Source: Bacteroidota bacterium
GTDB lineage: Bacteria > Bacteroidota > Bacteroidia > Bacteroidales > JACABE01
Length of the DNA stretch: 64,000 bases
Direction of reading: 5' to 3'
Assembly: GCA_013377005.1 (NCBI GenBank)
Contig: JACABE010000005.1
Span: 1 to 64,000, forward strand
Of the stretch, positions 26,284 through 45,140 are shown in pieces (the first letter of the stretch is position 1; each line of letters starts with the position of its first letter). The position numbers were made by a program, and so were the translations under genes. The notes under the pieces are model-generated. The model was not told where the DNA came from, made no database searches, and saw only the letters and a list, made by a program, of their open reading frames with translations.

Positions 26284-27942
<1,659 letters not shown>

Positions 27943-27959: not shown

Positions 27960-28238
27960 TTAAACGATAGCGTAAATATCAGCTTCTTTCATAATAAGAT
28001 ATTCTTTTCCCTCGTAGGTGATTTCTGTTCCTGCATATTTACCATATAAAACATTGTCGCCAACTTTAACGGTCATGGGTTCATCTTTTTTTCCGTTGCC
28101 AACAGCAACAATAATACCTTTTTGTGGTTTTTCTTTTGCTGTGTCAGGAATAATAATTCCACCTGATGTTTTCATTTCAGCAGCAGCAGGCTCTATAATA
28201 ACTCTGTCTGCTAATGGTTTAATGTTTAATTTTGACAT
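27960..28238 (-). CDS. groS: Co-chaperonin GroES
   Basis: [42 protein letters not shown]. Confidence 0.99.
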
Positions 28239-28300
28239 AATACTTAATGATTATTTGTTATACAATATGTTTTTATTTTTTTATTTGTCTGAATGCTATT

Positions 28301-28357
28301 ATCATTTTCTGTGCCATTCTGCTTTTAATCGAAAAACATGACAAAATGTCTGTTTTC
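28301..28357 (-). promoter_or_regulatory. groESL regulatory region: palindrome plus sigma-54-like TGGCAC-N6-TGAT
   Basis: AAAAACATGACAAAATGTCTGTTTT (28332-28356, + orientation); on - strand TGTCATGTTTTT then 15 nt then TGGCACAGAAAATGAT (28316 to 28301). Confidence 0.5.
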
Positions 28358-28379
28358 TGGAGTTTTTGTTCAAAAAAAA

Positions 28380-28407
28380 TGTCAGAAATGTAATACACTC
28401 TGACACT
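28380..28407 (-). terminator. Terminator downstream of secG
   Basis: On - strand TGTCAGAGTGTATTACATTTCTGACATTTTTTTT. Confidence 0.75.
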
Positions 28408-28429: not shown

Positions 28430-28792
28430 TTATTTAACAGGAGCTTCGCCTGAAGGTTTTTCTTGAGCAGGTTTTTGCTGAGCCGGTGCCTGAGTTGCTG
28501 CATTGATAGGTGCTGTTGCATTTTCAGTAGACAATTCTGTTTTTAAAGTACCTTCCTGATTGTTGCGAGGAATAGCAAAAACAGAAACTAAACTTAAGAA
28601 AAGTAATACTACAGCTAATGTCCAAGTTGCTTTTTCCAAAAAATCGGCTGTTTTTCTAACACCCATAATTTGATTAGACGAGGCGAAACTAGATGCTAAA
28701 CCACCACCTTTTGAATTTTGAACCAAAACTATTAAGCCTATTAAGATACAAGTAATAAGTATCAATACTGAGATAAAAACATATAGTCCCAT
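28430..28792 (-). CDS. secG: Preprotein translocase subunit SecG
   Basis: VLVQNSKGGGLASSFASSNQIMGVRKTADFLEKATWTLA. Confidence 0.93.
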   Translation of the reverse strand: MGLYVFISVLILITCILIGLIVLVQNSKGGGLASSFASSNQIMGVRKTADFLEKATWTLAVVLLFLSLVSVFAIPRNNQEGTLKTELSTENATAPINAATQAPAQQKPAQEKPSGEAPVK

Positions 28793-28804
28793 TATATTTA
28801 TTTT

Positions 28805-29431
28805 TTATTGTTGATTACTAATATTTTTCAAAAATTTTATTCGGCTTGCAAAGAAACTACTTTTTTCGGGATTTTCCAAACTTAATTTTTCATAAATTTT
28901 TATTGCCTTTTTGTAATACCCCTGTTTTTCATATACAATAGCAAGCGTTTCACTTACAATATCATCATTTTCGACAAGACTATTTTTTTCAATATCAGAA
29001 GAAAATTCTTTATTGGGAAGTGGCGTATTGATTTTAGGTTTCTCTTTTAAAAATTTATCAATAATTATTTCTTTTTCAGAGTTATAAACTGTTGCGGAAA
29101 CTTCTTCGTTAGCTTCAATAATGTCATTAATAATTATTTCAGCAACAATTTCTTCTGAATTTGCTTGGGTTGTTATTTCTTTTTTTATACCGGAGGCTGA
29201 AAACGAGTTAATTGTTTTTTTTAGTATTTTACGACTAGGTATACATATTGCTGCAACTGACAGTTGTTTTTCGAAATCACTACTTTGAATTTGTTGCAAA
29301 TTTAAAGCTAAAAGTATTTGTAAACCTTGGCAAAAAGGGTATTTTGATGTTAGTTCAGTAATCTTTGGAATACTATTATTGCTTAATTTTCCCGGAAATT
29401 GCAAATATAGGATGTAATCATTTGGAGTCAT
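28805..29431 (-). CDS. Hypothetical protein with C-terminal TPR-like repeat
   Basis: [39 protein letters not shown]. Confidence 0.75.
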
Positions 29432-29452: not shown

Positions 29453-29959
29453 TTACCAATTAACCACTGCTTTGTTAAAGATATCATCTACCAGTTCTTT
29501 ATTTATTTCTTCAATCAATTTGCTTTCTAAAGACGATAAATTTTGTTGACTATCATACTCTCTATATCTGGAAAACGAAGTTTCAAAATCCTGTTTATTA
29601 TCTTTATTATTGGTAAATTTTACTTTTACTGTAATTGTTAATCGGTTTAGTGCAGCTAGTTGATTGGCTTGAACTGCCACAGCTTGAATCGAATAATCAG
29701 ATATTTCACCTTCAATATTCAAATCGCCGTTGGTTTTTAGTAAATTTAAATTAGTTTGTGCTGCAAATTTATCACGCAAAGCAAGCGTAAATGTTTGACT
29801 TAATGTTGGCTGAACCAATGATGCATTATTTGGAAATTGTATTATTGAAATTGATTTTACATCAGGAGATATAGATGCTCCTGTGAACGAATAGAATCCA
29901 CATCCATTAAATAAGATTGTTATAAGGATAATTGATAATATTTTAAAAACTTTACGCAT
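29453..29959 (-). CDS. lptE: LptE-like LPS assembly lipoprotein
   Basis: Lipobox LFNGCGFYSFTGASISPDVKSISIIQFPNNA; conserved position between sigma-54 regulator and TPR/secG genes. Confidence 0.85.
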   Translation of the reverse strand: MRKVFKILSIILITILFNGCGFYSFTGASISPDVKSISIIQFPNNASLVQPTLSQTFTLALRDKFAAQTNLNLLKTNGDLNIEGEISDYSIQAVAVQANQLAALNRLTITVKVKFTNNKDNKQDFETSFSRYREYDSQQNLSSLESKLIEEINKELVDDIFNKAVVNW

Positions 29960-29993: not shown

Positions 29994-31229
29994 TTAAATA
30001 TTTATCTCAAATTCTTTTAATTTTCTGTAGAGTGTTCTTTCAGAGATACCTAGCTCTGCAGCTGCTTTTTTGCGTTTCCCTTTATATTTCTCTACAGCTT
30101 TTTTTATCAAATCCATTTCTTTTTTTTGTAAAGATAGTATTTCTTCAACTTCTATGAAGTTTTTTGTTGATTCCTGAGTAGATTTTTCTTCAAATGTATG
30201 TTGAATTTCAAATTCTTTATCTTCATCAATAAAAGCATCAAATTCGGGGCTATATTTTTCAATAAAAGTATTCTTTTTGTGATTAATATTTGCATTTATA
30301 CCAGTTGTTTGCAAGATATCGGCAATAATCTTTTTTAAATCATGAATATCTTGTTTCATGTCGAAAAGAACTTTGTATAATAATTCCCTTTCAGAAAACC
30401 CTTTGGTAGCATCCGATTTATCAAGAAGTACCGGAAGTTCTCGAAAACTGGTTTCCGGTAAATATTTTTCGAGTGTTTCAAGTGTAATATCTCTATCTCG
30501 TTCAATAATGGATATCTGTTCGGTAATATTTTTAAGTTGACGAACATTGCCTTGCCAATGATAATTCATAAGGTATTGGCGAGCTTTATCATCAAGCTGC
30601 AAAGAAGGCATACGATACTTTTCTGCAAAATCGTTGGCAAACCTTCTAAATAATAAATCAATATCTTGCTTTCTGTCTTTTAGTGAAGGAATAGTAATAG
30701 GAACCGAATTAAGCCGATAATATAAATCTTCCCTGAATTTTCCTTTCTGTATGGCCTCAAGAATGTTTACATTAGTTGCTGCTACTACCCTAACATTTGT
30801 TTTTATGACCTTAGATGAACCAACTTTCATAAATTCTCCGGATTCAAGAACTCTAAGTAAACGAACCTGTGTAGAAAGTGGTAATTCTGCTACTTCGTCA
30901 AGAAAAATAGTGCCATTATTTGCTACTTCAAAATAGCCTTTACGCGCTTCATGTGCATCCGTAAAAGAACCTTTTTCGTGTCCAAATAATTCTGAATCTA
31001 TAGTTCCTTCTGGTATTGCACCACAGTTGATGGCAATATAGGGTCCATGTTTTCTGGCACTTAACTGATGAATAATCTTTGGGAAAACCTCTTTTCCAAC
31101 GCCACTTTCTCCTGTAATTAAAACTGTAATATCAGTAGGAGCTACTTGACAGGCTATCTCAATAGCTCTATCAAGTAATGGTGAGTTTCCTATAATTTCA
31201 AAACGTTGTTTGATTGCCTGAATATTCAT
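29994..31229 (-). CDS. Sigma-54-type AAA+ transcriptional activator, no N-terminal receiver domain
   Basis: GESGVGKEVFPKIIHQLSARKHGPYIAINCGAIPEGTIDSELFGHEKGSFTDA; NVRQLKN; C-terminal Fis-type HTH KRKKAAAELGISERTLYRKLKEF. Confidence 0.95.
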   Translation of the reverse strand: MNIQAIKQRFEIIGNSPLLDRAIEIACQVAPTDITVLITGESGVGKEVFPKIIHQLSARKHGPYIAINCGAIPEGTIDSELFGHEKGSFTDAHEARKGYFEVANNGTIFLDEVAELPLSTQVRLLRVLESGEFMKVGSSKVIKTNVRVVAATNVNILEAIQKGKFREDLYYRLNSVPITIPSLKDRKQDIDLLFRRFANDFAEKYRMPSLQLDDKARQYLMNYHWQGNVRQLKNITEQISIIERDRDITLETLEKYLPETSFRELPVLLDKSDATKGFSERELLYKVLFDMKQDIHDLKKIIADILQTTGINANINHKKNTFIEKYSPEFDAFIDEDKEFEIQHTFEEKSTQESTKNFIEVEEILSLQKKEMDLIKKAVEKYKGKRKKAAAELGISERTLYRKLKEFEINI

Positions 31230-31302: not shown

Positions 31303-31330
31303 GGATGTGTGACAAAATGTCATGTTTTTT
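31303..31330. promoter_or_regulatory. TGACAAAATGTCATGTTTTTT palindrome upstream of the AAA+ activator gene
   Basis: TGACA-AAA-TGTCA core identical to the core upstream of groES and equivalent to that upstream of htpG. Confidence 0.5.
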
Positions 31331-43163: not shown

Positions 43164-43190
43164 AAAAACATGACATTTTGTCATGTTTTT
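43164..43190. promoter_or_regulatory. Perfect 27-bp palindrome upstream of htpG
   Basis: AAAAACATGACA-TTT-TGTCATGTTTTT, 12-bp arms. Confidence 0.8.
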
Positions 43191-43195
43191 TATAT

Positions 43196-43211
43196 TGGCA
43201 TACGCTTTGAT
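43196..43211 (+). promoter_or_regulatory. Sigma-54-like -24/-12 element upstream of htpG
   Basis: TGGCATACGCTTTGAT, aligned with TGGCACGnnnnTTGCW except C to A at -12. Confidence 0.5.
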
Positions 43212-43241
43212 ACATTGTGTGAAAATTAAAAAATTTAAACT

Positions 43242-45140
43242 ATGCAAAAAGGTAAGATTAACGTACAAACGGAAAATATTTTCCCCATAATTAAAAAGTT
43301 TCTTTATTCAGATCATGAGATTTTTTTAAGAGAACTCATTTCCAATGCTGTTGATGCAAGTCAGAAATTAAAAACACTTTCAGCTTTAGGCAAATTCAAA
43401 GGAGAATTAGGCGATTTAACCATTCAAATTACATTTGATAAAGAAAACAAAACCATTACCATTAGCGACAAAGGAATTGGAATGACCGCTGAAGAGGTTG
43501 AAAAATACATTAATCAAATTGCTTTTTCTGGTGCCGAAGAGTTTGTTGAAAAATATAAAGGTAAAAGCGAAGCCGATGCTCATGCTTTAATCGGACATTT
43601 TGGCTTAGGTTTTTATTCATCTTTTATGGTTGCCAAAGAAGTTGAAATTCACACTAAATCTTATACCACAGGAAGTAAAGCTGTAAAATGGTTATGCGAT
43701 GGTAGCCCTGAATATACGCTTACCGAAATAACGAAAAAAGAAAGAGGAACTGATATTATTCTTCACATAGCCGAAGACTCTGAAGCATTTTTGGAAGAAC
43801 ACAAATTATTAGATTTACTCAAAAAATATTGCAAATTCTTGCCGATTCCTATTCAATTCGGAATGGAAAAAACCTGGGAAAAAGTAGAAGGCGAAAAAGA
43901 TGAAAAAGGTAACGATAAAAGTATTGAAGTTGAGAAACCTCGCATCATTAACAATACAAAACCGCTATGGACAATCAAACCTTCTGAATTAACCGATGAG
44001 GATTATTCAAAATTTTACCATGAATTGTATCCTTATACTTTTGACGAACCTTTGTTTAACATACATTTAAATGTAGATTATCCATTTAACCTTACAGGTA
44101 TTTTGTATTTTCCAAAAGTGAAGAAAAACCTGGAAGTTCAAAAAGACAAAATACAATTGTATTGCAATCAGGTTTTTGTAACAGATTCTGTTGAAGGAAT
44201 TGTACCTGATTTTTTGACCTTGCTTCATGGTGTACTCGATTCACCCGATATTCCTTTAAATGTGTCCCGAAGTTATTTGCAAAGCGATGCTAATGTGAAG
44301 AAAATTTCGAGCCATATTACAAAAAAAGTTGCGGATAAATTAGAAGATATTTTCAAAAACAAGCGTGAGGAATTTGAATCAAAATGGGACGACATTAAGG
44401 TTTTTATAGAATATGGCATGATTACTGAAGAAAAATTTGCCGAAAGAGCCGAAAAATTCTGTCTGCTAAAAAATACCGATGGAAAATTTTTCACACTGGA
44501 AGCTTATAAAGAAAGCGTCAAAGATATACAGACTGACAAAGACAAAAAAATAGTTTATCTTTATACCAATAACGTTGAAGACCAACATGGTTATATTCAA
44601 TTAGCAAAAGATAAAGGATACGATGTGTTGGTGATGGACGGTGTGTTGGACAGCCATTTTATCAATTTGATGGAACGAAAACTGGAAAACACGACTTTTG
44701 TCAGAGTAGATGCCGATACCATTGAAAAGCTCATTAAAAAAGATGAAGAAATTCCTTCTAAATTAAGTGATGCTGAAAAAGAAAAATTAAAACCAATCTT
44801 TGAGAAAAATGTTGAAAAAACAAAATTCACTATAGTATTGGAGAGCATGAGCGAAACCGATCAACCTGTGTTGATTACTCAACCTGAATTTATGCGAAGA
44901 ATGAAAGATATGTCAGCAATAGGTGGAGGTATGTCCTATATGGGTTCGATGCCTGATATGTACAATCTGGTAGTAAACATTAACCACCCCTTAATTGGGC
45001 AGATTTTAAACAACACCGACGAAAACAATCAAAACGAAACAGTAAAACAATTAACTGATTTGGCATTGTTATCGCAAAATCTTTTAAAAGGCGAAGCTTT
45101 AACCGAATTTATTAAAAGAAGTGTTCAAATAATCAAATAA
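43242..45140 (+). CDS. htpG: Molecular chaperone HtpG (Hsp90)
   Basis: KFLYSDHEIFLRELISNAVDASQKL, GHFGLGFYSSFMVA, LNVSRSYLQSD. Confidence 0.98.
   Translation: MQKGKINVQTENIFPIIKKFLYSDHEIFLRELISNAVDASQKLKTLSALGKFKGELGDLTIQITFDKENKTITISDKGIGMTAEEVEKYINQIAFSGAEEFVEKYKGKSEADAHALIGHFGLGFYSSFMVAKEVEIHTKSYTTGSKAVKWLCDGSPEYTLTEITKKERGTDIILHIAEDSEAFLEEHKLLDLLKKYCKFLPIPIQFGMEKTWEKVEGEKDEKGNDKSIEVEKPRIINNTKPLWTIKPSELTDEDYSKFYHELYPYTFDEPLFNIHLNVDYPFNLTGILYFPKVKKNLEVQKDKIQLYCNQVFVTDSVEGIVPDFLTLLHGVLDSPDIPLNVSRSYLQSDANVKKISSHITKKVADKLEDIFKNKREEFESKWDDIKVFIEYGMITEEKFAERAEKFCLLKNTDGKFFTLEAYKESVKDIQTDKDKKIVYLYTNNVEDQHGYIQLAKDKGYDVLVMDGVLDSHFINLMERKLENTTFVRVDADTIEKLIKKDEEIPSKLSDAEKEKLKPIFEKNVEKTKFTIVLESMSETDQPVLITQPEFMRRMKDMSAIGGGMSYMGSMPDMYNLVVNINHPLIGQILNNTDENNQNETVKQLTDLALLSQNLLKGEALTEFIKRSVQIIK

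Follow-up and report, generated by a model that had tools for sequence, protein, structure and literature searches.

A probable sigma-54-dependent heat-shock regulon of Bacteroidia, with an operator phased to its promoter and a candidate activator encoded upstream of groESL

The window, by which we mean the whole stretch of 64,000 nucleotides of Bacteroidota DNA that was analysed, carries on one strand and in this order the genes for a sigma-54 activator, an LptE-like protein, a TPR-like protein, SecG, GroES and GroEL, with the activator gene 1.7 kb upstream, and on the other strand it carries htpG (Table 1). The AAA+ domain of the activator (PF00158, 227 bits) has a Walker A motif and a GAFTGA-type loop, and the protein has neither a receiver domain nor any other known sensor domain. 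Sigma-54 itself is represented in the genome by a single copy of rpoN (PF04552, 167 bits).

Table 1. Genes and control elements of the groESL and htpG regions, in window coordinates.
Feature	Position	Strand	Basis or remark
groEL	26284..27921	(-)	TIGR02348
groES	27960..28238	(-)	NCBIfam NF001531
groES sigma-54 -24/-12 element, TGGCACAGAAAATGATA	28300..28316	(-)	-12 reads GA, not GC
groES operator palindrome, AGACATTTTGTCA	28339..28351	(-)	TGACA-N3-TGTCA with 1 mismatch (aGACA-TTT-TGTCA); TGGCA offset 35 bp
Hairpin TGTCAGA...TCTGACA + T8 after secG	28372..28405	(-)	putative terminator
secG, in activator cluster	28430..28792	(-)	TIGR00810
Gene with weak TPR match, in activator cluster	28805..29431	(-)	PF13176, below cut-off
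LptE-like gene, in activator cluster	29453..29959	(-)	PF04390
Probable cognate activator: AAA+ sigma-54, no receiver domain, C-terminal Fis-type HTH	29994..31229	(-)	PF00158, PF25601, PF02954
Operator palindrome before activator gene	31310..31322	(-)	perfect; no -24 element
htpG operator palindrome, TGACATTTTGTCA	43171..43183	(+)	perfect; TGGCA offset 25 bp
htpG sigma-54 -24/-12 element, TGGCATACGCTTTGATA	43196..43212	(+)	
htpG (Hsp90)	43242..45140	(+)	NF003555

The same two elements stand in front of groES and of htpG. A sequence-only reading of the window had reported TGTCATGTTTTT on the groES strand (28343-28332, minus), followed by a 15-nt gap and then by TGGCACAGAAAATGAT (28316-28301, minus), and had found at htpG the same TGTCATGTTTTT (43179-43190), a gap of 5 nt and TGGCAT... 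from 43196; the sequences and the coordinates are all correct. What it took for a half-site at groES needs revision, however: it is the right half of a near-complete palindrome, and the htpG copy, with longer arms (AAAAACATGACA-TTT-TGTCATGTTTTT), is perfect. Because each motif alone occurs in the window at chance level (9 occurrences of TGACAWWWTGTCA with up to two mismatches, against 12.4 expected from shuffled sequence, and 11 of TGGCAY-N6-TGAT with up to one, against 8.9), single motifs were not counted as evidence, and the pair of palindrome and sigma-54 element was used instead. Those same counts speak for the idea that two AT-rich promoters have a short string in common by chance, to which we return with the class-wide counts.

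Perfect palindromes number only four in the 3.69-Mb genome, at dnaK, at htpG, at the activator gene and at one unrelated place. With up to one mismatch, which is how we defined the regulon of this genome, the palindrome and TGGCA...TGAT pair lies upstream of groES, htpG, dnaK, hsp20 and grpE (NCBIfam models served to check GrpE, the Hsp20-type protein and DnaK), and at all five promoters the TGAT follows TGGCA at sigma-54 spacing. Measured from the start of the palindrome to TGGCA, the distances are 25 bp at htpG, 26 at grpE, 35 at groES, 47 and 98 at hsp20 and 67 at dnaK. The two values for hsp20 reflect two tandem operators 51 bp apart (C33:4604-4667), both on the same helical lattice, which is described below. 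Further intergenic sigma-54-like elements occur in this genome with no palindrome (C14:12624 and C9:70882), one of them ahead of a lipoprotein-like gene; these are probably the targets of other activators.

How general is the pair? The exact form, with a spacer of 5-35 nt, gave 7 matches in 396 class genomes and none in a reversed control, and six of the seven were at chaperone genes (htpG of our own genome, three at dnaK and two at hsp20-dnaK), the seventh lying inside dapF. A wider pattern, which allows any three central bases, GA or GC at -12 and offsets of 18-48, matched 29 times in 397 class genomes against once in the reversed control, and 24 of these 29 sites belong to chaperone genes (dnaK 12, htpG 5, hsp20 3, groES 2, clpC 2). 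The other five comprise three in the coding sequence of dapF, one inside another gene and one beside lon that faces away from it; the three in dapF, which sit in homologous coding sequence at offset 48, were discarded. Counts such as these, set against their reversed controls and falling so heavily on chaperone genes, refute the chance explanation, whose probability we regard as practically nil. The pair is a class-wide control switch, chaperone-specific and conserved. The pattern has low sensitivity (it is found in about 6-7% of genomes), so a missing match means little. Outside the class, 151 genomes gave one match, at hsp20-dnaK, and the control gave one as well, so that there the regulon is either rare or diverged.

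The same pattern was also run over named GTDB genomes, as a sample and not a census, and gave at least 80 loci. Among the matches listed, at least 46 in Bacteroidota precede genes for DnaK, GroES, HtpG, ClpC or Hsp20, as judged by blastp, and inspection of the sequences adds at least two dnaK genes, a grpE, an htrA-like gene and, in two MAGs, lon. These two MAGs, again among the matches listed, are labelled Euryarchaeota and Neomarinimicrobiota; the former is probably a mis-binned contig, and the latter may mean that the regulon extends outside Bacteroidota. The remaining non-Bacteroidota matches listed lie mostly within genes, and none is at a chaperone. The sequence-only reading had predicted hits at dnaK, clpB and lon-type genes, and dnaK is confirmed in our own genome and lon in the two MAGs; the pattern scan gave no clpB. 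The motif proved to be conserved in relatives and not frequent at non-chaperone loci, as that reading had required.

A second regularity is in the spacing. It had been noticed that the groES and htpG arrangements differ by 10 bp, and suggested that this would keep a bound protein on the same face of the helix, and the suggestion holds, the difference being one step of a lattice of about 10.5 bp (about 25/35/47/57/67). Offsets of 18-48 were permitted in the class scan, yet its 24 chaperone sites occupy only 23-26, 34-36 and 46. The 46 named Bacteroidota sites among the matches listed have a Rayleigh R of 0.93 at 10.5 bp (nominal p ~6e-18), which becomes, with one site per gene and genus, again among the matches listed, 0.92 (n=34, nominal p ~3e-13); these nominal p values ignore shared ancestry and so overstate the significance. 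The 22 non-Bacteroidota sites among the matches listed show far weaker phasing, though still some (R=0.49, nominal p 0.005), and two probably genuine lon promoters may be the reason; the contrast is slightly the weaker for it. An independent check comes from the groES promoters of relatives, which were gathered without regard to the palindrome: 12 of 29 have a palindrome with up to one mismatch 18-69 bp before TGGCA, where shuffles lead one to expect 0.06, and all twelve are on the lattice (24/25, 35/36, 47, 56/57 and 67; R=0.94). At many groES promoters of relatives, only weak palindromes are found. Because the independent set is on the lattice as well, we read the 10-bp difference as one step of a general rule.

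A duller explanation is that the palindromes are weak terminators, hairpins with a T run, whose match to chaperone genes is incidental. The htpG stem (CATGACA/TGTCATG) is indeed followed by T6, and hairpins built from TGTCAG do follow secG in relatives, but a terminator at htpG would be needless, the gene upstream being divergent, the palindrome stem is A+T-rich, and most relatives have no T run. Nor does termination explain the phase with respect to TGGCA or the chaperone-specific distribution. We rejected this explanation on gene layout and phasing and consider it very improbable. The hairpin after secG in the window is probably a terminator between secG and the groES promoter. In several relatives the secG hairpin reads TGTCAGnnTGTCA...CTGACA with a T run and so reuses the operator half-site; it may be a terminator, a distant operator or both.

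As for the promoter half of the pair, each of the 29 relatives for which there is upstream sequence has TGGCAY 57-108 bp ahead of groES, and the conserved G 11 bp after TGGCA (position 14) is G in 29 of 29. The -12 dinucleotide is GA in our own genome and varies among relatives, with 13 GA and 12 GC at groES and 22 GA and 5 GC at the DnaK sites, GA being dominant at htpG also. With TGGCA and the spaced G at groES, htpG, dnaK, hsp20 and grpE, and with one rpoN, the earlier description of the element as sigma-54-like is supported. Promoters of this type (SM4) have been mapped experimentally in Flavobacterium psychrophilum at groESL, dnaK, grpE-dnaJ, htpG and lon, which form one co-expression cluster (PMC9723704), and a predicted Bacteroidota sigma-54 regulon is enriched in GroEL/ES, DnaK, GrpE, DnaJ, IbpA and HSP90 (PMC12316311). 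The suggestion of an undescribed chaperone regulon is thus half right: the shared regulon stands, and its sigma-54 part is already in these two papers. In the accessible text of this open-licence literature (PMC9723704, PMC12316311), no operator is described and no activator named. What is new is the operator, its phasing and the assignment of an activator; the sigma-54 chaperone promoters were already known.

Which protein, then, would read the operator? The activator encoded upstream of groESL is the best candidate, because it is single-copy and near-universal, its HTH is near-invariant and it is linked to groES. One orthologue was found in 55 of 58 relatives and in 196 of 198 class genomes, and the two misses, in genera whose other members carry it, may be search or assembly gaps; with the protein so nearly universal, there is therefore no presence/absence correlation to be had within the class. 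The near-invariant HTH (ELGISERTLYRKIKEY) would fit a conserved operator, as expected of the protein that binds it. Also strongly conserved is a segment between the AAA+ domain and the HTH (SEREILYKVLFDMK..-DLKK), which is a candidate regulatory site. An AlphaFold model made with 10 sequences had a mean pLDDT of 57, too low to interpret.

The activator gene and groES could both be placed in about 37 relatives, and in 16 of these they are at most 5 kb apart; at the Prevotella/Bacteroidales groES loci examined, the activator gene is not adjacent. F. psychrophilum has the same cluster (THC0290_0733-0732, then groES at 0729), and there the activator-lptE operon just upstream of groES has a non-sigma-54 (SM5) promoter, according to PMC9723704. 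Ahead of the activator gene, the palindrome is kept in 8 of 29 relatives (our own included), mainly in its own family, and because it is present with no -24 element, the gene is probably autoregulated and transcribed from another promoter.

Residues 87-92 of the activator (window 30954-30971) read GSFTDA in all five members of its own family seen, and the loop is GAFTGA or GSFTGA in 24 other relatives; the G-to-D change in the own family affects the loop that contacts sigma-54. This altered loop, like the GA at -12 in this lineage and at most dnaK and htpG sites, counts against the reading that we favour. That GSFTDA might co-vary with GA at -12 was considered and is unsupported, relatives with GSFTGA or GAFTGA having GA as well.

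It might still be that the regulon is real and that the palindrome is bound by some other activator, or by a repressor sitting next to the promoter, while the cluster-linked activator controls something else. Genomes of this kind have several sigma-54 activators (F. psychrophilum has three PF00158 proteins, and a first look at our own genome gave 14-15 candidates, most of them weak), an operator that abuts its promoter suits a repressor, and the activator is unlinked to groES in many relatives. Against this stand the near-invariant HTH and the occurrence of one orthologue in almost all class genomes (the class-wide search being for this activator only), the palindrome at the activator's own promoter in its family, and the linkage to groESL both within this order and in F. 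psychrophilum; phasing over at least four helical turns, moreover, suits an activator that touches polymerase better than it suits a repressor. On balance we think this alternative unlikely. That the cluster-linked activator binds the palindrome, the two being connected by genomics, we consider probable.

The usual heat-shock regulators are scarcely to be found. As the sequence-only reading had remarked, the window shows no CIRCE element, even when 3 mismatches are allowed. We found no hrcA in our own genome and hrcA in only 2 of 80 class genomes, and RpoH gave no match above the cut-off in 20 genomes. Because HrcA is nearly absent and RpoH was not found, heat shock in the class may be controlled mainly by the sigma-54 system. 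The two hrcA-bearing genomes belong to one genus, and one of them and a genus mate have the sigma-54 motif at hsp20-dnaK too, so two heat-shock systems may coexist there.

We arrive at a sigma-54-dependent heat-shock (proteostasis) regulon with a TGACA-N3-TGTCA operator phased to the promoter and an activator encoded in the cluster, a reading to which we give a probability of about 0.8. Its architecture, gene specificity, conservation and phasing are matters of observation. In such a scheme, the activator, coming from an activator-lptE-(TPR)-secG cluster, would occupy palindromes placed 25, 35, 46, 57 or 67 bp (steps of about 10.5 bp) ahead of the -24/-12 promoter and, held on a fixed face of the helix, would touch the sigma-54 polymerase directly; the spacing would be quantised because the operator abuts the promoter, so that the activator needs a particular helix face. 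Under protein-folding stress the activator would remodel the closed complex into an open complex at chaperone genes, switching on groESL, dnaK, grpE-dnaJ, htpG and hsp20, to which relatives would add lon, clpC and htrA. The lack of a receiver domain and the linkage to groESL suggest that free chaperone might titrate the activator and so hold it down, an idea that we offer as a tentative one. A bolder version, to which we would give slightly better than even odds, makes this receiver-less activator the master heat-shock regulator of Bacteroidia, acting from a promoter-proximal, helix-face-specific operator in place of HrcA and RpoH, with a drift to GSFTDA/TTGA in this lineage and perhaps with inhibition by chaperone.

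Among known systems, the closest in parts are the enhancer-binding proteins of the NtrC/PspF type, which have the same AAA+ domain, Fis-type HTH and palindromic site, PspF likewise lacking a receiver domain. Their sites are usually 80-200 bp upstream, a typical and not a strictly defining distance. In our own genome the centre of the palindrome is 19-61 bp before TGGCA, outside that usual range; the distance from the start of the site to the -24 element is 25-67 bp, the site is helically phased, and the targets are core heat-shock genes. The classical sigma-54 activator works from afar, with the DNA looping between, and phased adjacent sites throughout a class would lend themselves naturally to testing whether contact can be made without a loop. 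The HrcA/CIRCE and RpoH systems govern the same target genes with a different operator and regulator. HsfA of Myxococcus xanthus, an NtrC-type response regulator of a two-component system, is linked to heat-shock genes, and it differs from the protein described here, which has no receiver domain. Among the Bacteroidia are bacteria that dominate the human gut as well as major groups of the sea and the soil, and how the class controls heat shock without the usual regulators, HrcA and RpoH, is probably explained by the sigma-54 switch.

A close precedent is that of F. psychrophilum, in which SM4 promoters with -24/-12 elements serve the same genes and the same activator-lptE operon lies upstream of groES; that study (PMC9723704) concerns one species, and its main text gives a name to neither activator nor operator. 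The predicted regulon of PMC12316311 places the same chaperones under sigma-54 and, in its accessible part, offers a promoter matrix without operator, phasing or activator. With a named candidate activator and an operator to go with it, the question becomes directly testable.
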